From assembly GCA_007753915.1 (NCBI GenBank), contig CP036352.1, forward strand, positions 4,031,306 to 4,095,305: 64,000 nt of DNA, written 5' to 3'. Numbering within the stretch: the first letter of the stretch is position 1; the number at the start of each line of letters is the position of its first letter. The notes beneath the pieces were generated by a model, which worked only from the letters and a program-made list of their open reading frames with translations, was not told the DNA's origin and did not search any database. This document shows, in pieces, positions 8,927 to 47,739 of the stretch. Made by a program: the position numbers and the translations under genes. Source of the DNA: Phycisphaerae bacterium RAS2. Its GTDB lineage: Bacteria; Planctomycetota; Phycisphaerae; UBA1845; UTPLA1.

Positions 8927-10705
8927 CTATTCGCTCTTCACCATTTGCCATTCAGACAGATCCAGCTTCTTGAACAGCACTTCCGGCGCAGGGCCGAGCG
9001 CGTGCCCCACCGGCAGCGGCTCGGTCGCCCGCAGCCACGTCCACTGGTCCGGCGGCACATTCATCGACACGCGTATCTTTTCCGCCGCGAACGGCAGGAA
9101 CGGCGACAGCAGCACACCCAGCGTCCGCACCGCCTGAATGCACGTGTGAATCGTCGCAGCCGTGCGCGCCGCGTCCGTCTTGCGCGTTGTCCAGGGGGCG
9201 CGGCCGTCGATGTAGCGATTGCACTCGCGAAAGGCTTCCATCACGCGACCAAGAGCGGCCTTGAACCGCGCCGCCTCGATCTCCTCGCCGACCTTCTCCG
9301 GCAGCGTCGCCAGCATCGCGAGCAGCGCGCGGTCGGTGCCATCCGCTGCGTCGAACGACGGCACGCGCCGCGCGAAATCGTCGGTCACGATCTTCTGCCA
9401 GCGGTTCACGAAGTTGCCCAGCGCGGCGATCAGTTCGCCGTTGTTCCGCTCGACGAAGTCTTCAAAACTCCAGAACGTTCGCTGCGACTCCGGCGCGTTG
9501 ATCGTCAGGTAATACCGCAGCGGGTCGGGATCGAACGACTTGAGATAATCCTCGATCCACACAGCCGTGCCGCGCGACTTGCTGATCTTCTCCTCCTCCT
9601 TGCCGGGAAACTTGATGTTCAGGAACGCATTCGCCACGACGTTGGACGGAAGCTGAAAATGTCCCGCCGCCTTCGGTCGCGTGAAACTGCTGCCGCGGCT
9701 GGCGACCTCGTCCGCCGTGAATTGCGTGCCCAGCAGCATCGCCGGCCAGATCAGGGCGTGAAAGACGATGTTGTCTTCGCCGATGAAGTGGACGATCTTG
9801 CAGTCCGGATTGCGCCACCAGTCTTTATATTTTTCCCAGTCGCCATCGAGCTTCTGGCACAGCGCCGCGGTGAAGCTCACGTACCCGATCGGCGCGTCGA
9901 ACCAGACGTACAGCACCTTGCCCGCCGCGTCGGGGTCATCCAGCGGCACCGGCACGCCCCACTCCAGATCGCGCGTCATCGCCCGCTCGGGAAGGCCCGT
10001 CTTGATCGAGCCGAGCGCGAAGTTGGTGACAATCGGCCGCCAGTCCAGCGACGTAAGGCTGAACCAGTCGGCCAGCATCCCCTGAAACTTGTCCAGCCGC
10101 AGGTACCAGTGCGTCGTGCTGCGCTGCTCGGGAGTGCTGCCGGTGAGCGTGCTGACGGGGTTGACCAGCTTGAGCGGGTCGATGCTGTTGCCGCATTGCT
10201 CGCACTGATCGCCGAGCGCCTGCGGGTTGCCGCAGGGCGTGCCGTCGGGCTTCTTGTGATAGCACGTCCCCGTCACATACCGGTCGGGCAGAAACTTCTT
10301 CGCCTGCGCGTCGTAAAGCTGCTCGGTCGTGCGCTTCACGAAATGACTGTTGGAATGGATCGTGCGGAAGAATTCCTGACTTAGCTTTGTATGCAGTTCG
10401 ACGTAGTCGGGCTGATGCGTGCCGCCGTAAATGTCGAAGTGGACGCCGAGGCCTTCGAAGTCGGCCGCCTGCCGCTGGTTGTAGCGCGTGCAAAGCTCCT
10501 GCGGCGTACTGCCTTCCTTGCGCGCGGAGATTTCAATCGCGACGCCGTTGTCGTCGCTGCCGCAGATGAATCGCACGTCGTCCCCGCGCGAGCGCAGGTA
10601 GCGCACGTAAATGTCGGCCGGCAGATACGCCCCGGCGACGTGGCCGACATGCAGGCGACCGTTGGAGTAGGGCAGGGCGGCGGTGACGAGGAATTTTCGA
10701 CTCAT
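8927..10705 (-). CDS. metG: Methionyl-tRNA synthetase
   Basis: Class I aminoacyl-tRNA synthetase that charges tRNA-Met, 592 residues. Signatures: HIGH variant HVGH at residues 19-22, KMSKS variant KISKS, and a CxxC-type zinc knuckle (CGNPQALGDQCEQCGNS). The anticodon-binding helical domain fills the C-terminal third, and there is no C-terminal EMAP-like tRNA-binding domain. The ATG at 10705 is preferred over the in-frame ATG at 10732 because MSRKFLVTAALPY is the family's usual beginning. A 48-base piece of this start region is duplicated at 12617-12664. It converges on speB. Confidence 0.95.
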   Translation of the reverse strand: MSRKFLVTAALPYSNGRLHVGHVAGAYLPADIYVRYLRSRGDDVRFICGSDDNGVAIEISARKEGSTPQELCTRYNQRQAADFEGLGVHFDIYGGTHQPDYVELHTKLSQEFFRTIHSNSHFVKRTTEQLYDAQAKKFLPDRYVTGTCYHKKPDGTPCGNPQALGDQCEQCGNSIDPLKLVNPVSTLTGSTPEQRSTTHWYLRLDKFQGMLADWFSLTSLDWRPIVTNFALGSIKTGLPERAMTRDLEWGVPVPLDDPDAAGKVLYVWFDAPIGYVSFTAALCQKLDGDWEKYKDWWRNPDCKIVHFIGEDNIVFHALIWPAMLLGTQFTADEVASRGSSFTRPKAAGHFQLPSNVVANAFLNIKFPGKEEEKISKSRGTAVWIEDYLKSFDPDPLRYYLTINAPESQRTFWSFEDFVERNNGELIAALGNFVNRWQKIVTDDFARRVPSFDAADGTDRALLAMLATLPEKVGEEIEAARFKAALGRVMEAFRECNRYIDGRAPWTTRKTDAARTAATIHTCIQAVRTLGVLLSPFLPFAAEKIRVSMNVPPDQWTWLRATEPLPVGHALGPAPEVLFKKLDLSEWQMVKSE

Positions 10706-18206: not shown

Positions 18207-18446
18207 CGTTCGTCGCTGCCGGTGAATCGATTTGCGATTCTTCGCGCGCCTCGCGCGACGGCTGAACGTCCAACCCCACTCTTCTAGACACGGATCGAGC
18301 GACCACTGCCGTTTTCGGCGTGGCGCGGCGGCGCGTGAATCGCGTTTCGACAAGACCGTCAAACCAGCGCGCCGTTCACAGGGTTCCTCGTCGGCTCATT
18401 ACGCCGACGGGGGCATTCGTCGCGGCAATTGGCTGCGCGAGGAGGC

Positions 18447-19805
18447 ATGACGTTGAAGCATTTTCTTCCAGCGCTGGCTGGAGTTCTGATAGCGGCGATT
18501 TCCGCGCGCGGTGCGGAATTTCGCCTGCTCGTAGGAGTGGATGTCGGCCGGTATCCCGGCACAGCGAGGAGTGTTGCGCCGTCGCCGGGGCCGGGTTTCC
18601 CCGGCAGCTTCGCCGACGGAGACCGGCTGGCCGGAACCACGGACACCGGCGCGATCGTCGCGTACCAAGGCATCGGCACGCCACTTTACGCACCGAATCA
18701 CGTCGGCGCGATGAGCATGTTGTTTCGCCGCGGGAGCGTGCCGATCCCCGGATTCGGGCCGCTGCCGCTCATGGGGATCGACTTCCTCGGCGGGCCGCTG
18801 CTTGATCTGGACGGCGATTTGAACAACGGCGTGCGCAGCCTCGTGCCGGTCTCGGGCAATCCCACACCGGTCGAGATTCCGGGCACAGCGAGTTTCGTCG
18901 ATCTGTCGTTCGACTTCGCCGGCGGCCTTGTCACGCTCGTGGGACTGGATGCCACGGGCACGAACGAAGGCGGTCCGTCGATCGGCCCCGGCATCGCAAC
19001 GATTTTGGTGACGCTGGCCGGCACGACGCCGACCGGCGGCGCAGGGGCCGGACCTAACCCGACGTACGACACGCGCGTCGGCACGCTCACGCCCTATACC
19101 GGCGCGGGTGGCACACTAACAGGCGTCTATCGCATCAACGCCCTGCCGCTGGAGTACTGGTACGACTCGATTGAGCCGAACAGCGCGACGGCGTCCGACC
19201 TCGGTTCGCTTCAGCAGTTCGGCGTCTTTCGCGGCTGGCTCGTCGTACGCGACTGCGCGACGGGGCAGTTTCCGGTGATGACCGGTGAGGGACTCGGCGC
19301 AACGCTCTGGCCGATGGTCGACGCCGGAGACGTCGGAAACATCTACAACACCGCGGTCGATGCCTTCGGCGACACGGCGGAAATTTTCGGCGGCGTGCCC
19401 GGCGATCTGTTCACCGCGGCGGGCAACGGCGGTCTGCCGCTGACCGACGGCGGCGGCGATCTCGGCGCGTACTTCGACAACGTCGTGAAGCCGCGCGTCG
19501 CGACCGGCTCCGGTGCTTTTGTCTATCTCGAAGCAGCCGGCTTCGGCATCAACAACAGCGGCGATCCGGTCTTCACCGACACGGTCGGCTACGACGCCGT
19601 GCTGATCGGTGAGGCGGTGAGCGTCTTCGCAACAGGCGACGTCAACGCCGACGGCGCGGTCGACATGCTCGATGCGTCGCTTCTGGCGTCGATTCTTGTC
19701 AATCCAACGGCGCATTCCGCTTGTGAACAGGCGCGGGCGGATGTGAATGGTGACGGCCAGCGCGACGGCCGGGACGTTCGCGCGTTTCTTGATGCAGTCC
19801 TGTGA
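18447..19805 (+). CDS. Exported protein with C-terminal dockerin-type tail (paralogue of next gene)
   Basis: A 452-residue secreted protein. The signal peptide (FLPALAGVLIAAISARGA) is followed by a roughly 370-residue domain that is strongly similar to the next gene: AEFRLLVGVDVG, GSFADGDRLAG, FRRGSVP, GGPLLDLDGDLNN, GNPTPVEIPG and FVYLEAAG-x-G-x-NNS-DPVF. The last 55 residues form two calcium-binding-like loops, DVNADGAVD and DVNGDGQRD, as in type I dockerins common in planctomycetes. ATG 18447 is preferred over TTG 18429 because GAGGAGG lies just upstream. The central domain was not assigned to a known family. Confidence 0.82.
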   Translation: MTLKHFLPALAGVLIAAISARGAEFRLLVGVDVGRYPGTARSVAPSPGPGFPGSFADGDRLAGTTDTGAIVAYQGIGTPLYAPNHVGAMSMLFRRGSVPIPGFGPLPLMGIDFLGGPLLDLDGDLNNGVRSLVPVSGNPTPVEIPGTASFVDLSFDFAGGLVTLVGLDATGTNEGGPSIGPGIATILVTLAGTTPTGGAGAGPNPTYDTRVGTLTPYTGAGGTLTGVYRINALPLEYWYDSIEPNSATASDLGSLQQFGVFRGWLVVRDCATGQFPVMTGEGLGATLWPMVDAGDVGNIYNTAVDAFGDTAEIFGGVPGDLFTAAGNGGLPLTDGGGDLGAYFDNVVKPRVATGSGAFVYLEAAGFGINNSGDPVFTDTVGYDAVLIGEAVSVFATGDVNADGAVDMLDASLLASILVNPTAHSACEQARADVNGDGQRDGRDVRAFLDAVL

Positions 19806-19860
19806 GACGATGGCGACGAACTTTTTTCAGCCCAACCCCCCGAGAGGGAGAAAGATTCAG

Positions 19861-21099
19861 ATGACCAGGATTCAGAGCACAACGATCGTCGCGGCCGCGG
19901 CCGCTTTCAGTTTGTCCGTCTTCGCCGGCGCGGCGCGCAGCGCGGAGTACCAGTTGCTGACCGGCGTCGATGCCGGGTTGGCCCCGGGCGCGGTACGCAC
20001 CGTGTTCCCCAGCGGCGCGGGTGTGCCGGGTTCGTTCGCCGACGGCGATCGCCTTGCCGGCTCGGGCGCGACCTCGTCGGCGGCCTACGTCGGCACGGGC
20101 AGTCCGCTGATCGCGCCGAACGCTTACGGATCGCTAAGTTTCATGTTCCGCCGCGGCAGCGTGCCGGTGCCACAGGTGGGCCAGGCGCCGGTGCTGGCAA
20201 TTGACTACCTCGGCGGGCCGTTGCTCGATCTCGACGGCGACCTGAACAACAGCTCGCGCAGTCTCGTGCCGGTCGGTGGGAATCCGACACCGGTCGAAAT
20301 CCCCGGCTCGCGCAGCAGCATCGGGCTGAACTTCGACTTCGGCGCGGGCGCGGTCTCGCTCGCCGGTTTCGACGCCACGGCCACCAACTCCGGCTTTCAG
20401 GGGTTTGGCCCGAACATCGCCACCACGGTCAATACGTTGTCAGGAACGTTGCCGAACGGCACGAACAGCGGTGCGATTCTGAACCCCGCGCTGGACACGC
20501 GCAGCGGTTCGCTGCTGGCACTCGCGCCGAACGTCTTCGGCATCGCCAACCTCGGCTACGAGATCTGGCAGGACTCGATCGACCCCGCATCCAGCACGGC
20601 CGGCACCCTCGGCACCTTTCAGTATCTCGGCTCCCTGCGCGGACTGGTCGTCACGCGTGACGGCAACGGCAACTTCCCCACGCTCGCCGGGACGGGTCTG
20701 GGCGGCACGATCTGGTCACAAGTGAACTCGGCGCTGGTCGGCGCGAACGTCGCGCAGTCTTCCGGCCCGCCGCCCTTCACCACCATCACCGGCGGCCCGG
20801 CGAATGACAGCTTCCTCGCGCCGAACAACGGCGGCCTGCCGCTGACGGCGTTCGGAGGCGATCTCGGCGCGTACCTCGATGCCGTCGTCGTGCCGCTGAT
20901 CGATCCGCTGTCGCAGAGCTTTGTCTATCTCGAATCCGCCGGCGTCGGTGCGAACAACAGCTTCGACCCGGTCTTCGGCGACACCACGGGCTACGACCTC
21001 GTGCTGATCGCGCAGTCGGCACCGATTCCCGAACCGGCGACCGGACTGCTGGCGCTGATCGGCCTCGCGGCGATGGTCCGTTCGCGGCGGATTGCATAG
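19861..21099 (+). CDS. PEP-CTERM exported protein (paralogue of previous gene)
   Basis: A 412-residue secreted protein. It has a signal peptide (TTIVAAAAAFSLSVFAGAARS), then the same central domain as the gene before it (AEYQLLTGVDAG, GSFADGDRLAG, FRRGSVPVP, GGPLLDLDGDLNN, GNPTPVEIPG, FVYLESAGVGANNS). Instead of a dockerin it ends with PIPEPATG, a hydrophobic helix (LLALIGLAAMV) and RSRR, the PEP-CTERM sorting layout. The ATG at 19861 follows GAGAGGGAG. The two genes are tandem duplicates 55 bases apart whose ends have been exchanged. Confidence 0.85.
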   Translation: MTRIQSTTIVAAAAAFSLSVFAGAARSAEYQLLTGVDAGLAPGAVRTVFPSGAGVPGSFADGDRLAGSGATSSAAYVGTGSPLIAPNAYGSLSFMFRRGSVPVPQVGQAPVLAIDYLGGPLLDLDGDLNNSSRSLVPVGGNPTPVEIPGSRSSIGLNFDFGAGAVSLAGFDATATNSGFQGFGPNIATTVNTLSGTLPNGTNSGAILNPALDTRSGSLLALAPNVFGIANLGYEIWQDSIDPASSTAGTLGTFQYLGSLRGLVVTRDGNGNFPTLAGTGLGGTIWSQVNSALVGANVAQSSGPPPFTTITGGPANDSFLAPNNGGLPLTAFGGDLGAYLDAVVVPLIDPLSQSFVYLESAGVGANNSFDPVFGDTTGYDLVLIAQSAPIPEPATGLLALIGLAAMVRSRRIA

Positions 21100-21144: not shown

Positions 21145-21903
21145 ATGTCGGCAAGAATGACCTATAAACGGCACGTTGGTGGATATCGTCGCGGCGCGTT
21201 CACGCTGATCGAGCTGCTGGTCAGCGTCGGCATCATCGCCACGCTGATCTCCATCACGCTTCCGGCGCTGTCGTCAGCCAAGCGCCAGGCGCAGATCACC
21301 GGGTGCCAGGCCAGGCTGCGAGAGGTGTCGCAGGCGCTGTGGGCTTACTCCGTCTCCAACGACGCGCGCGTGCCGTACATCGTGTCGCCGCTTGTGAACG
21401 GAAAGTTCAACAACGCCTCCGTTCCCGATGCCGACATTGACCCGTTTAATCGTGACCTGTGGCCCGACTCGCTCCAGAACATCCTCATGCCGCTCTACCT
21501 CGGGGAAAACCGAAAGATATTCACCTGCCCCGCCGCGAACCGGGGCTGGCCTCGCCAGTCCGGAATGTTTGAAATGACCTATCGCGACGCCGGCATCAAT
21601 CAGCCCGGAGGCGGCACGTCGCTCGCCGGGTCCTACGAGCGCGAAGCGTTCGGGTTTCTCGACGGCCGACCGATGACCGAATTCCGCCCGAAGTTCAGCG
21701 GAAACATCATTCAGGACGCACAGATCCATAGTTACATGAGAGGGTCGTTCCTTCGCGACATGATCCAGCGCGACGCCACGAAGGTCGTGGGTCCGCATAA
21801 CGGCGGCATCAACGTCATCAATCGGGAATTCGGCGTCGAGTTTCGCGACCGGCGCGAGACGCAGGCGGACCTGGCGCCTAACTTCGGCGGTGTCCAGTTC
21901 TAG
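21145..21903 (+). CDS. Type II secretion / pilin-like pseudopilin with N-terminal methylation motif
   Basis: A 252-residue protein with a type IV prepilin-like start: basic leader (MTYKRHVGGYRR), cleavage motif GAFTLIELLVS with Glu at +5 if cut before Phe19, and a hydrophobic helix (VGIIATLISITLPAL). Planctomycetes have many such pseudopilins, often with a C-terminal H-x9-DG box; here it is degenerate (PHNGGINVINREFG). The globular part contains ENRKIFTCPAANRGW, typical of this group. It follows the two exported paralogues, possibly in one operon. The individual role is unknown: pseudopilus subunit or surface structural protein. Confidence 0.85.
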   Translation: MSARMTYKRHVGGYRRGAFTLIELLVSVGIIATLISITLPALSSAKRQAQITGCQARLREVSQALWAYSVSNDARVPYIVSPLVNGKFNNASVPDADIDPFNRDLWPDSLQNILMPLYLGENRKIFTCPAANRGWPRQSGMFEMTYRDAGINQPGGGTSLAGSYEREAFGFLDGRPMTEFRPKFSGNIIQDAQIHSYMRGSFLRDMIQRDATKVVGPHNGGINVINREFGVEFRDRRETQADLAPNFGGVQF

Positions 21904-22063
21904 GCGTCCTGCTCACATCAGCGGCCACGATCTGGAGCGTCTCCTCTTCCACTACGTCCTAGTTTTCTCGCGAAATCCCCCCGAATCGGAGCCTGTGAAT
22001 TGCTTGCCGTGCCCGCGATGGGGCGGATACAATCGCTCCCTGTGGGCAACTCGTAGCGGGGGG

Positions 22064-22240
22064 CGGCCGATCGTCAAGGCCGGGCAGGACCCAAACGATG
22101 TATGCGGGAGGAACCGCCTAACCGGGCGCGTTGCACGCGAACCGGGAAACAAGGCGGCCGCTATGGGTGCTGGTTGCCTTCCCGGGCCGCACCCGTGGAA
22201 ATGCGGATACTCGGGATTGGACGTGAGCCGGACAGGCTCA
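22064..22240 (+). promoter_or_regulatory. Candidate structured 5' leader RNA of the sugar cluster
   Basis: Consecutive stems precede the Gfo/Idh gene. CGGCC/GGCCG (22064-22068, 22078-22082) has a loop ATCGT (22070-22074) that can pair with ACGAT (22095-22099), forming a pseudoknot. Then GCGG/CCGC (22104-22117), CGCGT/ACGCG (22127-22139), and CCGGG..AAGGC with GCCTT-CCCGG (22142-22155, 22176-22185). This last stem competes with GGGTGC/GCACCC (22165-22170, 22189-22194). Finally TGAGCC/GGCTCA (22224-22240) ends 6 bases before the GAGGAG ribosome site. I do not recognise a known riboswitch. Confidence 0.5.
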
Positions 22241-22260
22241 TCGCACGAGGAGACGTCGCC

Positions 22261-23262
22261 ATGATCGGAGTCGGTGTGATGGGTTTGGGCTACTGGGGTC
22301 CGAACCTCGTGCGCAATTTCGCATCGGCTGAAGGCGCGAAACTCGCGGCTGTCTGCGACAAGGACCCCAAGCGCCTTGAGCGCATCGCGCGGCAATACCC
22401 TGCGGCCGCGACCGTCGAATCGGCTGAAGCATTATTCGAAACGCCGGGCGTGGACCTGGTTGTGATCGCGACTCCGGTTCACACACATTATCCTCTGGCA
22501 AAAGCAGCGCTGGCCAAAGGCAAGCACGTACTGGTCGAGAAGCCGCTGACCAGCGACCCGGCGCAGGCCGAAGAGCTGGTGGACCTGGCGAAGAAGGCCG
22601 GTCGCGTGCTCGCGGTGGATCACACCTTCGTTTATCACCCAGCCGTCGAGAAGCTAAGCGACGTCATCAAGCGCGGTGAGTTGGGCGATGTTTGTTACTA
22701 CGATTCGGTCCGAATCAATCTCGGCTTGTTCCAGTCGGACATTAGCGTGCTGTGGGACCTCGCGCCGCACGACGTGTCGATCATGCAGTACCTGATTAAC
22801 CGCAAGGTGAAGTGGGTGCAGGCGGTCGGCGCGCGACACGCAGGGCAGCCGGTCGAGACGATGGCCTACCTGACGGTTCAGTACGAAGACAACGTTCTTG
22901 CACACTGTCACGTGAACTGGCTAAGCCCGGTGAAAGTGCGGCAAGTGTTCATCGGCGGCAGCAAGCGCATGGCCGTGTACGATGACAACCAGGTGGCCGA
23001 GAAGATCAAGATTTACGACCGCGGCGTGGAGTTGCACGGCATCGACGGGGTACACCAGGCCCGCGTGCAGTACCGCATCGGCGACATGTACGCGCCGGCG
23101 ATTTCCAACGACGAAGCCCTTCGGCGAATGGCGCAGCACGTCATCCACTGCATCCGCGAGGGTAAGTCGCCGATCACCGACGGTGCGGCGGGGTGCATGG
23201 TCGTGAAGATTCTCGCGGCGGCGCAGGCATCCATCGAAACCGGCGACCGACGAGTGTTGTAA
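22261..23262 (+). CDS. Gfo/Idh/MocA family NAD-dependent sugar dehydrogenase (UDP-GlcNAc(A) 3-dehydrogenase-like)
   Basis: A 333-residue oxidoreductase with the two-domain Gfo/Idh layout: Rossmann motif GLGYWGPNL near the start, catalytic EKPL (Glu93, Lys94), and DHTFVYHPAV leading into the C-terminal alpha/beta domain with DLAPHD. This resembles WbpB/WlbA and GnnA, which oxidise C3 of UDP-GlcNAc or its uronate. The neighbours fit the next steps: an acetyltransferase (WbpD/WlbB-like) and a PLP aminotransferase (WbpE/WlbC-like). The ATG at 22261 has GAGGAG 8 bases upstream; the in-frame extension to 22102 lies in the structured leader and is rejected. Confidence 0.88.
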   Translation: MIGVGVMGLGYWGPNLVRNFASAEGAKLAAVCDKDPKRLERIARQYPAAATVESAEALFETPGVDLVVIATPVHTHYPLAKAALAKGKHVLVEKPLTSDPAQAEELVDLAKKAGRVLAVDHTFVYHPAVEKLSDVIKRGELGDVCYYDSVRINLGLFQSDISVLWDLAPHDVSIMQYLINRKVKWVQAVGARHAGQPVETMAYLTVQYEDNVLAHCHVNWLSPVKVRQVFIGGSKRMAVYDDNQVAEKIKIYDRGVELHGIDGVHQARVQYRIGDMYAPAISNDEALRRMAQHVIHCIREGKSPITDGAAGCMVVKILAAAQASIETGDRRVL

Positions 23263-23295: not shown

Positions 23296-23790
23296 ATGAA
23301 CCCACCTGATTATAAACGCATCGCGCCCGACGTGAAGCTCGGCCAGGACGTACAGATCTACGCCTTCGTCAACCTCTACGGCTGCGAAATCGGCGACCGA
23401 ACCAAGATCGGTACGTTTGTTGAAATTCAGCGTGGGGCCGTCATCGGGCGCGACTGCAAAATTTCGAGCCATTCCTTCATCTGCGAGGGAGTAACCATCG
23501 AAGACGAGGTCTTCGTCGGGCACCACGTCGTTTTCATCAATGATCGGTTCCCTCGCGCCACCAACGTGGACGGCTCGATCAAGACTGCGGCGGACTGGGA
23601 GTGCCGCCGCACGCGCGTCGGTCGGCGCGCCGGCATCGGCAGCGGCGCGATCATCCTCTGCGACGTGTCGATCGGCGAAAACGCCATCGTCGGCGCCGGT
23701 GCGGTCGTCACGAAGGACGTGCCGGCCGGAATGATCGTCGCGGGCAATCCGGCGCGCATCCTCGGTCCCGTCGGCGACAAGGAAAAATGA
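23296..23790 (+). CDS. Hexapeptide-repeat acyltransferase (WbpD/WlbB-like)
   Basis: A 164-residue left-handed beta-helix transferase. The hexapeptide pattern is clear (IGDRTKIGTFVEI, IGRDCKISSHSFI, VTIEDEVFVGHHVVF, IGENAIVGAGAVVT), ending in the typical VPAGMIVAGNPARILG. His residues in HHVVFINDRFPRA match the active-site area of the WlbB/WxcM N-terminal type. The expected reaction is acetyl-CoA-dependent N-acetylation of the 3-amino group on a UDP-linked diamino sugar made by the flanking dehydrogenase and aminotransferase. Its stop overlaps the next gene's ATG (ATGA), so translation is coupled. Confidence 0.88.
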   Translation: MNPPDYKRIAPDVKLGQDVQIYAFVNLYGCEIGDRTKIGTFVEIQRGAVIGRDCKISSHSFICEGVTIEDEVFVGHHVVFINDRFPRATNVDGSIKTAADWECRRTRVGRRAGIGSGAIILCDVSIGENAIVGAGAVVTKDVPAGMIVAGNPARILGPVGDKEK

Positions 23791-24545
23791 TGGCCCCTCC
23801 GAAGTGGTCGGTCGCCGTCATGTGCTACAACGAATCCGGCTCGCTGGAGGCGATGATCCGGCGAACGCTGGCGGTGCTCCGCGCGCGAGGGGAGCCATTT
23901 GAAATCGTCATCATCGAAGACGGCTCCGCCGACGGCAGCCGGGAAATCGCGGCGCGACTGGCCGATGAGAACACGGAAGTTCGCGTTCATCAGCACCCGA
24001 CGAACCTGGGCATCGGTTCGGTGCTCACCGATGGCTACCGCCAGACGCGCGGCGATGTGACGGTGATTCTGCCCGCCGATTTGCAGTTTGCCCCCGAAGA
24101 CCTTCCCAAGGCGATGGCTCACATGATTGAGTCAAACGCCGACGTGGTGATGATCCGCCGCCCCGATCGGCACGATCCGCCAATGCGCCGAATCGTTTCG
24201 GCCTTTGACGAAACCCTGGTCGGCCTGCTGTTCGGCGTCTGGCAGCGCGATCTGCACTGGGTCAAGCTCTACCGCCGAAGCGTGCTGGATCGTGCCACGA
24301 TCCTCAGTACGACGCCCATGGTCGACACCGAACTGCTCGTGCAGGCCCATCGCATGGGCGCGAAAATCGCCTCCATCGACCTGCCGCATCATCCGCGAAC
24401 GACCGGTCAGAGCACCGGCGCGAAGGTCTCTCTGTTGATACGTACGTTCGTCGAGCTATTTCGTTTGCGCCTGCGTCGGATGGGTCGCGTCGAACGCGAT
24501 TCCGGCGGGCGCGCCGTTCAACACCAGGCAAAGAGTCACCCATGA
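23787..24545 (+). CDS. Family 2 glycosyltransferase
   Basis: A 252-residue GT-A fold glycosyltransferase. The N terminus has WSVAVMCYNESGSLE, then EIVIIEDGSADGS (the nucleotide-binding D-G-S segment), and a DxD-like region at ILPADLQFAPEDL. The arrangement resembles dolichol-phosphate mannosyltransferase-like GT2 enzymes that prime or extend lipid-linked glycans. No transmembrane helix is seen except a weakly hydrophobic LVGLLFGVW. The start ATG 23787 overlaps the upstream stop and the end overlaps the next start, so it is embedded in one operon with sugar-nucleotide genes. Confidence 0.85.
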   Translation: MMAPPKWSVAVMCYNESGSLEAMIRRTLAVLRARGEPFEIVIIEDGSADGSREIAARLADENTEVRVHQHPTNLGIGSVLTDGYRQTRGDVTVILPADLQFAPEDLPKAMAHMIESNADVVMIRRPDRHDPPMRRIVSAFDETLVGLLFGVWQRDLHWVKLYRRSVLDRATILSTTPMVDTELLVQAHRMGAKIASIDLPHHPRTTGQSTGAKVSLLIRTFVELFRLRLRRMGRVERDSGGRAVQHQAKSHP

Positions 24546-25660
24546 AGAACATCCCGTTTCTCGATCTCAAGGCGCAGTACCTCCCCCTCGCCGATGAAAT
24601 TCAGCGCGAGCTGAAGGAGGTCTGCGAGACAACTCAGTTCATCCTCGGCGGCAAGGTCAAGGCGTTTGAAGACGCCTTCGCCAAAGCCGTCGGTGCCAAG
24701 CATTGCATCGCGCTCAACACAGGCACCAGCGCGCTTCACCTCGCCATGGACTGCCTCGGCATCGGCGCCGGCGACGAGGTCATCGTCCCTGCGATGACCT
24801 TCATTGCCACGGTCTGGGGCGCCGTCTATGCTCGCGCGACCCCGGTGCTCGTCGATGTCGATCCTGCCACGCGCAACCTCGACCCGAAGAAACTCGAAGC
24901 TGCCATCACACCGCGCACCAAGGCCATCATTCCCGTTCATCTGTATGGGCAGCCGGCTGATCTCGACGCCATCTTCGCCATCGCAACGAAGCACAACATC
25001 CCTGTCATCGAAGACACGGCGCAGGCACACCTCGCGCAGTACAAGGGCAAGATCGTCGGCAGCCTCGGCGTCATGGGGTGTTTCAGTTTCTACCCCGGTA
25101 AGAACCTCGGCGCGTATGGCGAAGGCGGCGCACTGACGACCAATGACGATGCCCTCGCGAAGGCTGCACTTTCGCTCCGCGACCACGGGCAGGCACAGCG
25201 CTACCATCACGATCGAATCGGCTACAACTATCGCATGGACGGTTTTCAGGGCGCGGTGCTCGGTGTCAAACTGCGGCACCTGTCGAACTGGACCGAGCAG
25301 CGCCGCCGGGCCGCCGCGCGATATTCCCAAAAGCTGACTCCGCTGGCTGACAAGGGCTTAATTGAGATCCCCCGCGAGCCGGAATGGTCGCGCGGCGTGT
25401 ATCACCTCTACGTCGTGCTGGTGAAGAACCGCGACGCCGTGAAGGACAAGCTGACGGCCGCCGGTGTGAACGTCGGCCTGCACTACCCGATTCCGCTGCA
25501 TCTGCAAAAGGCGCTGGCGCACCTGAAGCACCAGCGCGGCGATTTCCCCGTGGCGGAGCGAATCGCTGATGAATGCATCAGCCTGCCGATGTTCCCCGAG
25601 CTGTCCGACGCGGACGTCGATTACGTGGCCGACGCGCTGACAGCGTGCCTCGCATCGTGA
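24542..25660 (+). CDS. DegT/DnrJ/EryC1/StrS family PLP aminotransferase (WbpE/WlbC-like)
   Basis: A 372-residue sugar aminotransferase. The N terminus IPFLDLKAQY is typical of the family; GTSALHLAM provides phosphate contacts, IEDTAQAH the Asp that holds PLP, and FSFYPGKNLGAYGEGG the PLP lysine (Lys187). The expected reaction is glutamate-dependent amination at C3 of the keto sugar from the upstream Gfo/Idh enzyme, giving a UDP-3-amino sugar for the acetyltransferase two genes earlier. It overlaps the glycosyltransferase gene by 4 bases. Confidence 0.92.
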   Translation: MKNIPFLDLKAQYLPLADEIQRELKEVCETTQFILGGKVKAFEDAFAKAVGAKHCIALNTGTSALHLAMDCLGIGAGDEVIVPAMTFIATVWGAVYARATPVLVDVDPATRNLDPKKLEAAITPRTKAIIPVHLYGQPADLDAIFAIATKHNIPVIEDTAQAHLAQYKGKIVGSLGVMGCFSFYPGKNLGAYGEGGALTTNDDALAKAALSLRDHGQAQRYHHDRIGYNYRMDGFQGAVLGVKLRHLSNWTEQRRRAAARYSQKLTPLADKGLIEIPREPEWSRGVYHLYVVLVKNRDAVKDKLTAAGVNVGLHYPIPLHLQKALAHLKHQRGDFPVAERIADECISLPMFPELSDADVDYVADALTACLAS

Positions 25661-25702
25661 CGCGGTAAGGAACGACGCCTTGGTCTTGGGAGCCACGTAG
25701 GC

Positions 25703-26458
25703 ATGGCCACCTCGGTGAATCTCGTCGAACTTCAGGACACGCTCTACACGTCGCGCAATCCGACGAGACGGTGGCTGCACACCCAGCGGTTGGAGTGGGT
25801 GCTGTCGGCCCTGGAACGGCACAAGCCCTCGCCCTGTCATCGCGCCCTGGAAATCGGCCCCGGTTCGGGAACGTACCTCCCCACGCTCTGCGCCATGGCC
25901 GACGAAGTCGTCGCCGCCGACATCGAGGACGCCTACCTGGAAAAGGCCAAGTCTCTGACCCAGCGCCTGACGAATCTGCAACCCCTCAAGGATGACATCA
26001 CCGCATCGAAACTGCCGAACGGCCACTTTGACTTGATTCTCTGCACCGAAGTCATTGAGCACATCCCCGGATCGGCGGCCGGACTGCGCGAGATGCGCCG
26101 GCTGCTTCGCCCCGGCGGCGTGCTGGTGCTTTCCACGCCCCAGAAATACAGCACCATGGAGATGATGTGCAAAATCGCCCTGCTGCCGGGCATCATAGAA
26201 ATCGTGCGGCGGATCTACCGTGAGCCGGTCGTTGAATCGACCCACTGCAACCTGCTGACGGCCCGCACGTGCCGCCGTCTGATCGCCGAAGCGGGGCTGA
26301 CAATTGTCGAGCAACACAAACTGGCGTTCTATCTCCCACTCGTCGCGGAGATGACCGGTCGCATCGGCCTGGGTCTGGAACAATGGCTGGAGTCGGGCCT
26401 GCGCAAGACGCCGCTTGACGGCCTGCTCTGGACGCAGTGTTATGTGGCGCAGGCCTGA
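25703..26458 (+). CDS. Class I SAM-dependent methyltransferase
   Basis: A 251-residue methyltransferase. Motif I is ALEIGPGSGTYLPTL, motif II VVAADIEDAYLEKA, the acidic strand FDLILCTEVIEHI, then the post-motif LLRPGGVLVLSTP. It resembles Ubie/Methyltransf_11 enzymes. The second half (about 150-251), with LGLEQWLESGLRKTPLDG, may bind a lipid or sugar substrate. It follows the aminotransferase after 42 bases with GGAG upstream, so it probably modifies the glycan or lipid carrier of this cluster. The substrate is not readable. Confidence 0.85.
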   Translation: MATSVNLVELQDTLYTSRNPTRRWLHTQRLEWVLSALERHKPSPCHRALEIGPGSGTYLPTLCAMADEVVAADIEDAYLEKAKSLTQRLTNLQPLKDDITASKLPNGHFDLILCTEVIEHIPGSAAGLREMRRLLRPGGVLVLSTPQKYSTMEMMCKIALLPGIIEIVRRIYREPVVESTHCNLLTARTCRRLIAEAGLTIVEQHKLAFYLPLVAEMTGRIGLGLEQWLESGLRKTPLDGLLWTQCYVAQA

Positions 26459-28412: not shown

Positions 28413-28436
28413 CAGGCCTACGACGCCCGTAGTAGC
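28403..28436. promoter_or_regulatory. Putative BlaI operator
   Basis: Two direct GTAGTAGC copies (28403-28410, 28429-28436) and a dyad CTACG-ACGCC-CGTAG (28418-28432) overlap the proposed -10. BlaI/MecI regulators bind TAC/GTA-type dyads, so autoregulation is likely. Confidence 0.5.
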
Positions 28437-28497
28437 CAGTTCCCTGTGGAATCGGTCCGCTGCGGTCGGCGAAACGGGGGCAAGGGTTCCGCGAACC

Positions 28498-28908
28498 ATG
28501 ACGGATCGACTTTCCGAGTTGCCCGATGCCGAGCTTGAGGTGCTCAAAGCCCTTTGGGATTGCGGGCCATCCACCGTGCGGGCGGTGCTGAATCACCTGC
28601 ACGAGCGCGGCCGCCGGGTGGCCTACACGACCGTGCTCACCTTCCTTTCGCGCCTGGAGCAAAAGGGACTGGTCCGAAGCGACAAGTCGGACATGGCCTA
28701 CGTCTATCGGGCCAAGGTCTCGCGCGAACAGGTGACGCGATCGCGCGTGCGAAGCCTGATCCGCCAGCTCTACGACGGCGTGGCCGGTCCCCTGGCGGTG
28801 CAGTTGATCAAGGATGAGAAGCTCTCTCGAAAGGAAATTGACGAACTCCACAAGCTGATTGAGCGACTGGATTCCCAGGGGGGATCGAAACGCTCCTCTG
28901 ATGAATGA
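28498..28908 (+). CDS. BlaI/MecI/CopY family transcriptional repressor
   Basis: A 136-residue winged-helix repressor. LPDAELEVLKALWDCGPSTVRAVL is the standard BlaI beginning, RRVAYTTVLTFLSRLEQKGLV the recognition helix and wing, and the C-terminal third is the helical dimerisation part (SLIRQLYDGVAGPLAVQLI). In BlaI systems, the paired M56 metallopeptidase cleaves or inactivates the repressor on a signal. The paired M56 gene follows. The ATG at 28498 is chosen because conserved sequence begins there; the frame is open to 28384. Confidence 0.9.
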   Translation: MTDRLSELPDAELEVLKALWDCGPSTVRAVLNHLHERGRRVAYTTVLTFLSRLEQKGLVRSDKSDMAYVYRAKVSREQVTRSRVRSLIRQLYDGVAGPLAVQLIKDEKLSRKEIDELHKLIERLDSQGGSKRSSDE

Positions 28909-28983
28909 AATGCTGAATGGGTGGCAACCGGTCCAGGAGACCGGTTCGGGTCAATCGCGGTTCGAGCAGGACGACAGCACACC

Positions 28984-31569
28984 ATGCAAGGCTGGATCGA
29001 CTGGACAACCGGATATCTGTGGGCGAACGCCCTCGCCGTGATGTTGCCGGCAGCCCTTGTCGCGCTGCTGACGAGCGGCGGGCGATGCCGGCCCGCGACG
29101 CGGCACGCCTTGTGGTTGACGGTGCTGTTGCTGTTCATCGTGCCGCCGGTTGCGCTCCCGACTTTTTTTTCAGGGGGCAAGCGGGTCGAGAGTGAACCGA
29201 CGACCGCGCCGCCTTCATCGAATGATCACGCGGCAGCGCTGAACTGCCCGCTCATTGAGACTCCACCCCGGACGGGTGTCGACGTCGAGGACTCGGCGTT
29301 GGCTTCGCTCGCATGGACGCCGCCCGCGGCGCGACACCCGTCCCCCACCTTGGAAGCATCGTCCGACTCGCCGGCCGTGGAATCAGCCGCCGCAGCCCCG
29401 ATCGCCGAACATCCCGTGCTCGTTGAACGCGCGCCTTGCGCGCCGGACTGGACACCGGAGTTCTTCACCGCGCCGGACCGCGCGGCAGCGGTTCACGCGG
29501 CACAGACCATGCCCGGCGCGCCCCCGCATAACGCGACAAATGCCGCCGCCGCACGATTCGCCAGGACGACGCAGACCCTCGCACCGCTTGCGGGCACGTG
29601 GCAGACCCTGCGCGGTTACGCGGCGGGGTGGGTCGGCGCGGTCCGGTTCGCCGCATCGCGCATTCCACAAATGCCGACCTCTGTCTGGATACTGGGTACC
29701 GCCCTGATCGTTGCAGCAAGGCTGGCCTCGATCTCGCGCGGCCGTCAACTGCTCGCAGCCTCCAGGCGCGCGCCGCAGAAGATCGAGCGCCTGACCGCAC
29801 GCTGCGCCCGGCAATTGGGTCTGCGCGCCCGGCCCACGGTACGAATGATCGATCGCGCGTGCCCGCCGATGGTGCTGGGGCTCTGGCGGACGCATCTGCT
29901 TCTGCCGGTTTCGCTCTGGGATCAGCTCGATCCGGTCGGGCGACAGGCGATTCTCCTCCATGAACTGGCGCACGTGCGCCGGCGCGACCTCTGGGTCCGC
30001 TGGCTGGAGCGGCTGATTGCGGCGATGTGCTGGTGGCACCCGGTCGTGTGGTACGCCCGGCACCGATTGAACGAGGAAGCCGAGCACTGCTGCGACGCAT
30101 GGGTCACCTGGCTGCTGCCCGGCGCGCGCCGGCGCTACGCGACGGCCCTGCTCCAATCACAGACATTTGTCAATTCAAGTCATCCCGTCGATCCCGCGGT
30201 GGGAATCGGCGTTGTGAGCGTGCGAGCCAAACGCCTTGCCAGGAGACTGACCATGGTCATGACCCATCCTTCGCGCCCCGCGCTGTCCGCCGGGGGCGTG
30301 CTCACTGTTGCCGCCCTCGCGCTGGCCGGCTGGTTCTCCGCGCCCGCCTGGGCCGGATTCCCCGGCGACGCCGTGCAAACGCAACCCACTCCCGCGCCGG
30401 CACCCGACGAACCGGTCTCGCCGGAAGACGCCGAAGCAGTGCCGGAGGAAATTGAAGTGGTTGAACTTGACGTGCCCGGCGCGCCCGTGATCGTCGAGAC
30501 GCAACCGCGCGTCGCGTATCGCGCCGCGTCTCCCGCGGCCACGCTGGCGCCGCTGGTCGCCACCATGCCGATCGGTCAGTCCGGCGACAAGGCGATGGAG
30601 GAGCGCATGCGCCGATTGGAAGCACAACTTCATCGACTCGAAGCGCAGCTTGAGCGAATCGGCGCCGTGCCCGCAGTCGAGGGAGCGGTGAATCGATCGC
30701 TCCTGCCTCCGGCGTCCAGCCGTGTTCGCACGGCGCGACCGTCAGCCCCGGGACAGGCCACGCGACCGGCAACTCCTCGCGCGCCGATGGCGCAGCGCGG
30801 CGGAGTTGGGTTCGGCCGCAGCCAGGGCGGTGGGGCAGGCGGCTCTGCCGGCGGTCAGGCGTCGGCGGGCGAGCAGCCCATGGTCTCGCGCACGTACAAG
30901 CTGTCGCAGGGCAAGCTTGAAGCCCTGCTCAACCTGATGGCGCGCCAGGATGTGCCGATCTTTGTCGCGCGACGAGACGAAGGCATCGAAGTGACCGCCA
31001 CCGCTCGGCAGCACGAGATCTTCTCTGCGTTTGTCGCCATGATCGATCCGGACAATCGCCGCGCCAGTGCCGACGACGAGGCAACGTGGGGCTTGATCGC
31101 CACGACGGAAGCAGCCGAGGCCGGGGCGCTGGCCGCGGAGCTTCGCGCACGCGAACTGGCGATGGTCGAGCGTGAGCGAGCGCTTCATCAACACGCACTT
31201 GCGGAAGACCAGGTTCGCGCGGCGGAAGAACTTCGCGCCGCGGCCGCAGCGCAGCGCCAAGCCGTCGACAAGAGCCGGCACTACTCCGAGGGCTACTCGC
31301 TCTACAACCAGGGCGATTACGTCAGTGCGCTGGACTCGTTCCGCCGCTCGGCCGACGTCAATCACCTGCGCGGCGAATCGCTTTACAACATGGCCTGCTG
31401 CGAGGCGCTGCTGGGCAACCCCGAAGAGAGCCTCGATCTGCTCGAACAGGCTTGGGAGGCCGGGTATCACCAGTTGGAGCACATCCAGCAGGACGATGAC
31501 CTGAACACGCTTCGCGACGACGAGCGCTACAAAGCGTTTGTTGAGAAGCGCTCGAAGGCAGCCCGGTAG
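28984..31569 (+). CDS. M56 (BlaR1-type) membrane metallopeptidase with long C-terminal TPR-bearing extension
   Basis: An 861-residue membrane sensor peptidase. N-terminal helices (ANALAVMLPAALVALL, LWLTVLLLFIVPPVAL) are followed by a long Pro/Ala-rich linker. The zinc site is HELAH (His326, Glu327, His330) with the downstream acidic ligand region NEEAEHCCD. Beyond a helix (GVLTVAALALAGWF) lie a Gln/Glu coiled stretch, a secretin-like or repeat-domain segment (YKLSQGKLEALLNLM) and TPR-like repeats (ALDSFRRSADVNHLRG, YNMACCEALLGN). ATG 28984 is preferred over GTG 28921. It likely senses an envelope signal and relieves BlaI repression; the ligand is unknown. Confidence 0.85.
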   Translation: MQGWIDWTTGYLWANALAVMLPAALVALLTSGGRCRPATRHALWLTVLLLFIVPPVALPTFFSGGKRVESEPTTAPPSSNDHAAALNCPLIETPPRTGVDVEDSALASLAWTPPAARHPSPTLEASSDSPAVESAAAAPIAEHPVLVERAPCAPDWTPEFFTAPDRAAAVHAAQTMPGAPPHNATNAAAARFARTTQTLAPLAGTWQTLRGYAAGWVGAVRFAASRIPQMPTSVWILGTALIVAARLASISRGRQLLAASRRAPQKIERLTARCARQLGLRARPTVRMIDRACPPMVLGLWRTHLLLPVSLWDQLDPVGRQAILLHELAHVRRRDLWVRWLERLIAAMCWWHPVVWYARHRLNEEAEHCCDAWVTWLLPGARRRYATALLQSQTFVNSSHPVDPAVGIGVVSVRAKRLARRLTMVMTHPSRPALSAGGVLTVAALALAGWFSAPAWAGFPGDAVQTQPTPAPAPDEPVSPEDAEAVPEEIEVVELDVPGAPVIVETQPRVAYRAASPAATLAPLVATMPIGQSGDKAMEERMRRLEAQLHRLEAQLERIGAVPAVEGAVNRSLLPPASSRVRTARPSAPGQATRPATPRAPMAQRGGVGFGRSQGGGAGGSAGGQASAGEQPMVSRTYKLSQGKLEALLNLMARQDVPIFVARRDEGIEVTATARQHEIFSAFVAMIDPDNRRASADDEATWGLIATTEAAEAGALAAELRARELAMVERERALHQHALAEDQVRAAEELRAAAAAQRQAVDKSRHYSEGYSLYNQGDYVSALDSFRRSADVNHLRGESLYNMACCEALLGNPEESLDLLEQAWEAGYHQLEHIQQDDDLNTLRDDERYKAFVEKRSKAAR

Positions 31570-35721: not shown

Positions 35722-36465
35722 TTACCGGCTGGCGGCCGCCCCGGTCTCAAGGTAGAGGATTCGCCCGCAGACGTTGCACTTCACGGCCTCGTCGCGCGAC
35801 AGCAATGCGTTGACCTGTTGCACCGTCACGCTCATGTTGCAGCCCTGGCAGGCGTATTCGTCGCGCTTTGGATTTGTGCGGATGATGCGCGCCATGGCCT
35901 CGCCGTCGTTCTTCGCTGCCACGCGATTGAACATATCCAGCACGCCGGCCGGAATGCCGTCGGCCGCCTCGGTGCGCTGCGCGTTCAGACCGTCGAGACG
36001 GTCCTTCGACTGCACTTCAACCGCCTTTTGCGCCGAGAGGAACTCGTCCACCTTCGCCGTTTCGGCAGCGCGCTGTTCCTGAAGCGCGGCGATTTCCTTG
36101 CGCCGGGCGTCGACCTGCCCCATTTTCTGGAGGGCCGCTTCCTCGATCTTTGAGTTGTCGGCCTTGGTCGTGTTCAACTGCATCAGGATGGCGGAATACT
36201 CTTTGTTGGTTTTCGCGGCGTTCAGGGCCTGGCGAAGCTTGGCGATCTCGGCCTCGCGCGATTTGACATCCAGATCGAGCCGGTCGGCGTCCATCTGTTC
36301 GGATCGAAGCTTGAGCTGGAGGGATGCAAGCTGCGCGTCGATCGTCGCGACGGCTTGCTGCTGTCGGCGGACAGCCTGCGCCTTGCGGGCGATGGCGCGG
36401 TTGATGTCGGCGATTTGAAGCTCGACTTCCTGAAGTCGGTGCAGGGCGTCGAGAACGGCTCCCAT
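35722..36465 (-). CDS. C4-type zinc-ribbon coiled-coil protein
   Basis: A 247-residue protein. Residues 10-175 form a long antiparallel coiled coil (LHRLQEVELQIADINRAI, KLRQALNAAKTNKEYSAIL). The C terminus folds into a zinc ribbon with CQGCN (first pair) and CNVCGRILY (second pair). This is the family found next to or fused to RNase HI in many bacteria and related to the DksA/transcription-factor group of nucleic-acid binding proteins; its exact role is unknown. ATG 36465 has GAGGA 8 bases upstream. Operon with rnhA downstream. Confidence 0.88.
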   Translation of the reverse strand: MGAVLDALHRLQEVELQIADINRAIARKAQAVRRQQQAVATIDAQLASLQLKLRSEQMDADRLDLDVKSREAEIAKLRQALNAAKTNKEYSAILMQLNTTKADNSKIEEAALQKMGQVDARRKEIAALQEQRAAETAKVDEFLSAQKAVEVQSKDRLDGLNAQRTEAADGIPAGVLDMFNRVAAKNDGEAMARIIRTNPKRDEYACQGCNMSVTVQQVNALLSRDEAVKCNVCGRILYLETGAAASR

Positions 36466-36608
36466 GTTCGGCGTTCCTCACTTGCTCCGCGCGGGCGGGA
36501 TCACGTTGCCAATCAAGCTGAAGTATTATGCCCGCGCGCGGGCGTTTCAGCAACCGACCGCGATTTTACGGCCTGCACTGCGGTTCATCCCGCGACCGCT
36601 GCGCATAA

Positions 36609-46810: not shown

Positions 46811-46847
46811 AAAAAAAGCAGAACGCAGGCCGAGACCTGCGTTCTGC
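46811..46847 (-). terminator. Strong intrinsic terminator
   Basis: A perfect 12-bp stem (GCAGAACGCAGG, 46818-46829, with CCTGCGTTCTGC, 46836-46847, loop 6) with seven A residues at 46811-46817, which read as a T tract on the minus strand. It ends transcription of the small coiled-coil gene at 47103-47375 and insulates the ligase-like gene. The rest of 46848-47102 shows nothing recognisable. Confidence 0.92.
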
Positions 46848-47102
46848 CTATCCCCCGAGGCATTCGTCACAAATCGTGCGCCGGCTCGTCGCCCCAATCA
46901 ACGGCTGCCGACCCCCCCGAGTAGCAACCGTCCGAGCCTGACCCCCCCAGGCAAAGCTCGAAAGATTCTGTCGGTGCGGGGCGCCGCGCCGGCGCGTGTG
47001 TCATTCCTCGAAGTACATCAGTCTGTCTAAGAAACCATCCCGATCAAGCCAGGCCGCCGCGTATCCGGGCCGGGCGATTGTGACGCCGCGGCGGGCCGAC
47101 CG

Positions 47103-47375
47103 TTACTCTTGTGTCTCGCCTTCCTGCTCGATCATCTTGCGCAGGTAGTCGTTCTCGCGCCGCGTCGCCTCCAGATCGAACAGCAAATACTTGATCGACA
47201 GTCGCAGATAATCAATCGACTCCTGCAGGCTGCTGACCGTGGCTTTCAGTTTGTCCTGGCGCATCTTCGTCTCGACCGCCAGCGACTCGAGCTTGCCCCG
47301 CTGCGTCTCCGGAAGCGTGCCGATCTCGTTCATCAGCTCCGCCAGTTTGCTCTGGAACGTTGTCTCGTCCATCAT
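47103..47375 (-). CDS. Small coiled-coil protein, unknown
   Basis: A 90-residue, strongly charged, helical protein (KLESLAVETKMRQDKLKATV, SLQESIDYLRLSIKYLLFDL, EATRRENDYLRKMI) that should form a coiled coil through most of its length. GAGGGAG lies just upstream of two consecutive ATGs. The gene has its own strong terminator and sits divergently from leuS, so it is probably a real, well expressed small protein. I do not recognise the family; a structural or regulatory partner role is a guess. Confidence 0.75.
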   Translation of the reverse strand: MMDETTFQSKLAELMNEIGTLPETQRGKLESLAVETKMRQDKLKATVSSLQESIDYLRLSIKYLLFDLEATRRENDYLRKMIEQEGETQE

Positions 47376-47739
47376 CCGACTCCCTCGCTCGCAAAGCGAT
47401 GCGACCGGCGGCCGCGCTCGCGCTCTCCTCGTTGCGTCCTCTCTCGCGGAGGTTGTTCAGCAAGGCCCGTGCCGCTGCTTGGGCCCCGCGCCGCGACAAT
47501 TCGAGCATCGCGCCTAACTTGTTGGAATCAATGCAGTAAGCAGCCGATCGCCGAACCGCTCCGTTCCCGGTTTGCGGACGTTGACCGCCGCGCGGCGTTG
47601 CCGGGATGCATCATTTCACCAATGGCGATGTTGCGAAGCGACAACGTTGCCGAGTTCCGGCCGGCTTGCACGGCGGAGTTTGGCCGAGTGGATTCGCCCG
47701 AATAAACTGCCTCATTCACGAACCGAGCCGCGCCCAGAG
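47376..47739. other. 364-bp divergent intergenic region before leuS
   Basis: No gene, tRNA-like fold or T-box motif was seen. It should contain the promoters of leuS and of the coiled-coil gene. A leucine-responsive leader was looked for and not found. Confidence 0.5.

Follow-up and report, generated by a model that had tools for sequence, protein, structure and literature searches.

The RNAs nearest in genomic role to the element that we describe here are wcaG (RF01761), manA (RF01745) and epsC (RF01735). The wcaG and manA motifs are leaders of exopolysaccharide or sugar-metabolism genes and are regarded as riboswitch candidates (PMC2864571), but they are known from marine samples and cyanophages and neither matches our leader up to E = 10. 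The epsC/EAR RNA is likewise a structured leader tied to exopolysaccharide operons, but it is Bacillus-type and its covariance model has no match to the leader. Like our element, translational riboswitches have a core that is compact and conserved and, after it, a stem holding the Shine-Dalgarno sequence, whereas switching in our leader is only predicted and the element occurs in two genomes only. RfaH/ops and UpxY systems also act in polysaccharide-operon leaders, and the genome studied here has an UpxY-like NusG paralogue, although no element is common to the leader and the paralogue's own locus. The Rhodopirellula-1 motif is a listed candidate RNA of planctomycetes and proteobacteria, which stands without an Rfam number in the table of that paper (PMC2864571). 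Gene regulation in planctomycetes is poorly described, RNA leaders that sense nucleotide sugars are barely known from them, and literature searches on planctomycete riboswitches and NusG-dependent polysaccharide leaders yielded no description of the element.

We analysed a 64,000-nucleotide stretch of Phycisphaerae bacterium RAS2 (the window, to whose positions all coordinates refer) and compared the source genome (G000) with that of a sister species (G001), the only other member of the genus compared, such that the comparative test is one pair of genomes. In our best explanation, in which we have moderate confidence, a genus-restricted structured mRNA leader of about 220 nt acts in cis to control how a WbpB/D/E-like nucleotide-sugar/polysaccharide operon is translated. 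Because the fold is strongly conserved in the sister species and the ribosome-binding site lies within a stem, we read this leader as a probable RNA switch of its operon, small, as yet without a name and riboswitch-like in layout. If confirmed, it would add an unnamed structured leader for a surface-sugar operon and supply a defined sequence with which to screen for ligands or proteins. Its parts and the genes that follow are these:

22004 to 22033, plus strand: sigma-70-like promoter, TTGCCG-18-TACAAT (one site, against 0.1 expected in shuffles)
22040 to 22109, plus strand: 5' part of the leader, invariant over 70 bases in the two species
22065 to 22081, plus strand: hairpin H1, GGCC/GGCC (sequence and two-sequence consensus fold; invariant, no covariation)
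22070 to 22074 with 22095 to 22099, plus strand: candidate pseudoknot of the H1 loop with ACGAT (sequence; invariant; chance rate 49%)
22082 to 22092, plus strand: hairpin H2, GGG/CCC with loop CAGGA (sequence and consensus fold; invariant)
22104 to 22117, plus strand: hairpin H3, GCGG/CCGC (consensus fold; a single G001 change, in the loop)
22122 to 22145, plus strand: hairpin H4, CCGG(CGCG...CGCG)CCGG (consensus fold; three G001 changes, all in the apical loop)
22115 to 22119 with 22152 to 22156, plus strand: alternative stem enclosing H4 (U22119-A22152 becomes G-C in G001)
22151 to 22159 with 22172 to 22180, plus strand: hairpin H5, 9 bp (consensus fold; a compensatory and a one-sided change)
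22220 to 22224 with 22253 to 22257, plus strand: outer stem of the Shine-Dalgarno domain, GACGU/ACGUC (one compensatory change in G001)
22225 to 22229 with 22235 to 22239, plus strand: inner hairpin of the Shine-Dalgarno domain, GAGCC/GGCUC (one compensatory change in G001)
22248 to 22252, plus strand: Shine-Dalgarno sequence AGGAG, identical in G001
22261 to 23262, plus strand: first gene, a Gfo/Idh/MocA sugar dehydrogenase, WbpB/WlbA-like (Pfam)
23296 to 26458, plus strand: rest of the likely operon, with a hexapeptide acetyltransferase, a GT2 glycosyltransferase, a DegT aminotransferase and a methyltransferase

Evaluating the genes, we found that the best NCBIfam match of the first one is UDP-GlcNAc 3-dehydrogenase, under the cut-off, that its orthologue in G001 is 97% identical, and that the DegT aminotransferase is close to WbpE and QdtB. 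We take the dehydrogenase, acetyltransferase and aminotransferase, on general knowledge of these families, to fit a WbpB/D/E-type route to UDP-2,3-diacetamido sugars. Orthologues in other genera sit in different contexts, and the leader is absent before them, both by eye and by covariance model (one model match, inside a gene).

The syntenic leader in G001 is 83% identical overall, with the identity distributed very unevenly. The block 22040-22109 is 100% identical over its 70 bases, ranking first among noncoding identical runs and seventh among all identical runs in the aligned parts of the window; the promoter region reaches 84%, the upstream spacer 51% and the spacer 22179-22260 67%, while neighbouring genes are 86-89% identical. 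The fully identical block contrasts with flanking spacers at 51-67%, and conservation and covariation in the leader, outside the exclusive pair of the preliminary description, do exceed chance. A coding origin of the block is unlikely, as by our own arithmetic 23 codons without a synonymous change are improbable at gene-level divergence and, in the alignment, its frames end differently in the two species. Likewise, 22066-22095 was considered as a gene remnant, given IVKAGxD-like coding stretches in several matches, and set aside since the proteins are unrelated and the frame is lost in G001. No conserved leader peptide of the kind used by attenuators was found, the short frames from 22098 and 22102 ending differently in G001.

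Both promoter hexamers are kept in G001 even though identity drops to 51% in the spacer farther upstream, and the predicted transcription start, about 22040, coincides with the start of the invariant block. No intrinsic terminator (GC-rich hairpin plus U-run) was found in 21800-22400; therefore attenuation by such a terminator between core and gene, one of two layouts offered in the preliminary description, is unlikely, and, as judged from the sequence, the conserved Shine-Dalgarno stem speaks for control at the level of translation. The promoter-like site and the 140-nt conserved body with its hairpins would also suit an independent small RNA gene that merely happens to lie upstream of the operon, an explanation that we consider quite improbable given that there is no terminator and that the covarying stems reach the start codon of the operon's first gene.

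To evaluate the leader's structure, we compared its folding with shuffled sequences and its pairings with those of G001. For the single sequence, folding energy is unremarkable, both for the leader (22040-22264, z -0.5) and for its core (22040-22178, z -1.3). The two-sequence comparison revealed Watson-Crick compensatory changes in four stems, where column shuffles lead one to expect 0.4 (P about 0.0007), and a consensus fold of 22110-22263 with z -3.6, where 40 neighbouring control windows had a mean of -0.5 and a minimum of -2.7. Locally, H5 reaches a consensus-fold z of -5.6, with A22152-U22179 replaced by C-G in G001 (compensatory) and G22157-U22174 by A-U (one-sided), and the Shine-Dalgarno domain has a joint column-shuffle P of 0.0003; in the consensus fold of the whole leader, a plain count of 3 compensatory pairs is not significant (P 0.39) and the energy is (z -3.4). 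These covariation and fold figures are limited by their basis in one two-sequence comparison, by the manual alignment of the Shine-Dalgarno piece and by the post hoc choice of test pieces. All substitutions in 22110-22145 fall outside the stems of H3 and H4. An earlier model of ours, R1, had long closing stems P1 and P2, which were demoted once H5 showed covariation.

These changes also bear on whether the conservation acts at the level of DNA, as sites for a regulator 3' of the promoter, the stems then being chance products of a GC-rich sequence. Such a reading would account for 70 invariant bases that yield no covariation, and for a pseudoknot and exclusive stems of kinds that are frequent by chance, but it sits poorly with four compensated stems (P about 0.0007) and with a length of 140 bases, long for protein sites, and we regard it as very unlikely.

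The preliminary description had proposed a structured leader on the grounds of a pseudoknot and of two mutually exclusive stems, which together were said to make chance less likely; the element is genuine, but those grounds are partly wrong. All of the named pairings occur in the sequence: the loop ATCGT (22070-22074), in hairpin GGCC 22065-22068/22078-22081, is complementary to ACGAT (22095-22099); the further stems 22104-22107/22114-22117 and 22122-22130/22136-22145 are present, as are the exclusive pair 22142-22155/22176-22185 (CCGGGAA+GGC, with a 4-base bulge) and 22165-22170/22189-22194; and the last 6-bp stem, TGAGCC/GGCTCA (22224-22229/22235-22240), ends 7 bases 5' of AGGAG. Yet among 2000 dinucleotide shuffles of 22064-22240, 49% contained an H-type pseudoknot (a hairpin loop pairing downstream) and 86% had 6-bp stems that exclude each other, random pieces of the window gave rates equal to the shuffles, and the count of 6-bp stems was ordinary (P 0.39). 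Because they are common in shuffled sequences, the two features prove nothing alone. The named exclusive pair is moreover not conserved, since the alignment with G001 breaks 3 of the 6 pairs of 22165-22170/22189-22194 and 2 of the 10 pairs of 22142-22155/22176-22185. The hairpins and the pseudoknot are kept in G001, where the pseudoknot is uninformative for covariation because its positions never vary. What stands of the proposal, a structured, promoter-proximal leader before a nucleotide-sugar operon, is carried by conservation, the promoter-like site and compensatory changes, the stated reasons being at chance level or not conserved. The comparison for compensatory changes that had been suggested, made here with one relative, places them elsewhere than in the exclusive pair, and H5 and the nested Shine-Dalgarno stems, which the preliminary description missed, are the features that such changes support.

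Several alternative pairings are kept in both species. The 3' arm of H5 (22172-22178) can pair with the 5' arm of H5 or with invariant 22045-22051, and CGAUG (22096-22100), which overlaps one arm of the pseudoknot, has a possible partner in CAUCG (22239-22243), adjoining the Shine-Dalgarno domain. Base 22152 covaries with 22179 in H5 and with 22119 in the stem around H4, a stem that is exclusive with H3 and H5. We treat the alternative pairings of 22172-22178, of 22152 and of 22096-22100/22239-22243 as candidate switch contacts.

In the translational switch that we favour, transcription would start near 22040, the first about 140 nt would make up a core resembling a sensor (H1, perhaps with its pseudoknot, then H2, H3, H4 and H5), and the last about 40 nt would form two nested stems holding the Shine-Dalgarno sequence directly 5' of the start codon. 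A closed Shine-Dalgarno domain would limit initiation, and the core or a bound partner would probably alter how often that domain opens, the link between core and platform perhaps running through competing pairings of 22172-22178, of 22152 and of CGAUG 22096-22100 with CAUCG 22239-22243. Within the domain, AGGAG sits between the inner hairpin and the 3' arm of the outer stem, and because in silico folding leaves it mostly unpaired within its stem, the degree of repression is uncertain. At the level of sequence, then, this account has conservation, a promoter-like site, covarying stems and a Shine-Dalgarno sequence inside a covarying stem, and a riboswitch function is plausible.

A more specific form of the same account, in which the core is a metabolite aptamer for a nucleotide sugar or precursor that opens or closes the Shine-Dalgarno domain, draws on the layout (conserved core, variable linker, Shine-Dalgarno stem), the conserved alternative pairings and an operon that makes and uses nucleotide sugars. 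Database and genome searches weigh on the other side. Zero Rfam 15 covariance models matched the window at gathering score, in line with the lack of a known class in the preliminary description, and the sole result of a permissive Rfam search of 21850-22400 was an opposite-strand snoRNA match of 12 bits. Our covariance models R1 and R2, run against genomes of relatives, family, class and phylum, found the element in G000 and G001 only, in searches that covered several hundred planctomycete-group genomes with a coarse first pass that may miss distant relatives; the weaker matches inspected lay inside genes or in unrelated sequence. A 35-letter pattern with 3 mismatches occurred in G000 and G001 only among 114 genomes of the order, and a loop pattern gave 31 matches over 84,980 species, none retained by the covariance model. 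The phage and plasmid search gave no match, and an exact match of 23 letters to a viral contig fell in a helicase gene and was dismissed as chance. Known riboswitch classes are usually widespread, whereas this element is in two genomes only and has no Rfam match, such that we hold the metabolite-riboswitch form as a tentative and rather doubtful one. Its boldest version, a new lineage-restricted class sensing a nucleotide sugar (for instance UDP-diacetamido-uronate or a precursor) and gating how its own biosynthesis operon is translated, two exclusive covarying stems sharing base 22152, would be an unlikely outcome. Narrow-lineage RNAs escape family databases, as this case shows.

A protein could instead be the partner, for example if the leader were a loading site for an UpxY/RfaH-like NusG paralogue that helps RNA polymerase to traverse the operon. 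In both species, a polysaccharide locus contains the gene for a second NusG-domain protein (L135:7726-8298, at G000:C1 about 1.804 Mb, with an orthologue in L136), the best NCBIfam match of this UpxY-like paralogue is the UpxY antiterminator family, below cut-off, and our leader heads a polysaccharide-type operon. The paralogue lies at another locus, though, about 2.2 Mb away; the genome holds no second copy of the element and none precedes the paralogue's locus; no noncoding 11-mer is common to leader and locus, where a shorter site is possible; and other genera with such paralogues are without the element. What we take to be a resemblance to ops, six letters only (GTAGCG), we also count against this reading. 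We judge a protein-binding leader of this kind improbable, with the UpxY/RfaH-like NusG paralogue encoded elsewhere in the genome as the reason to keep it in view. The locus of the paralogue also carries a conserved noncoding island (L135 about 9465-9590, G000 against G001), 5' of a Polysacc_synt_3 flippase-like gene, which is possibly another leader.

Elsewhere in the window, the longest identical run with G001 (36398-36498, 101 bases) covers the beginning of gene 35722-36465, on the minus strand, together with the region upstream of it. The region 46813-47571, upstream of a 1077-aa frame, is a long stretch that has no clear gene and no Rfam match at gathering score, and several runs in it, 35-62 bases in length, are identical in G001, the longest at 47381-47442. 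At 18429-21099 are two adjacent proteins of similar sequence, with a dockerin type I domain at the end of one and a PEP-CTERM-like tail on the other. At 28420-31569, a regulator of the BlaI/penicillinase-repressor family precedes a large protein that carries an HELAH motif, the latter judged by sequence reading alone, and the two resemble a BlaI/BlaR1-type pair.
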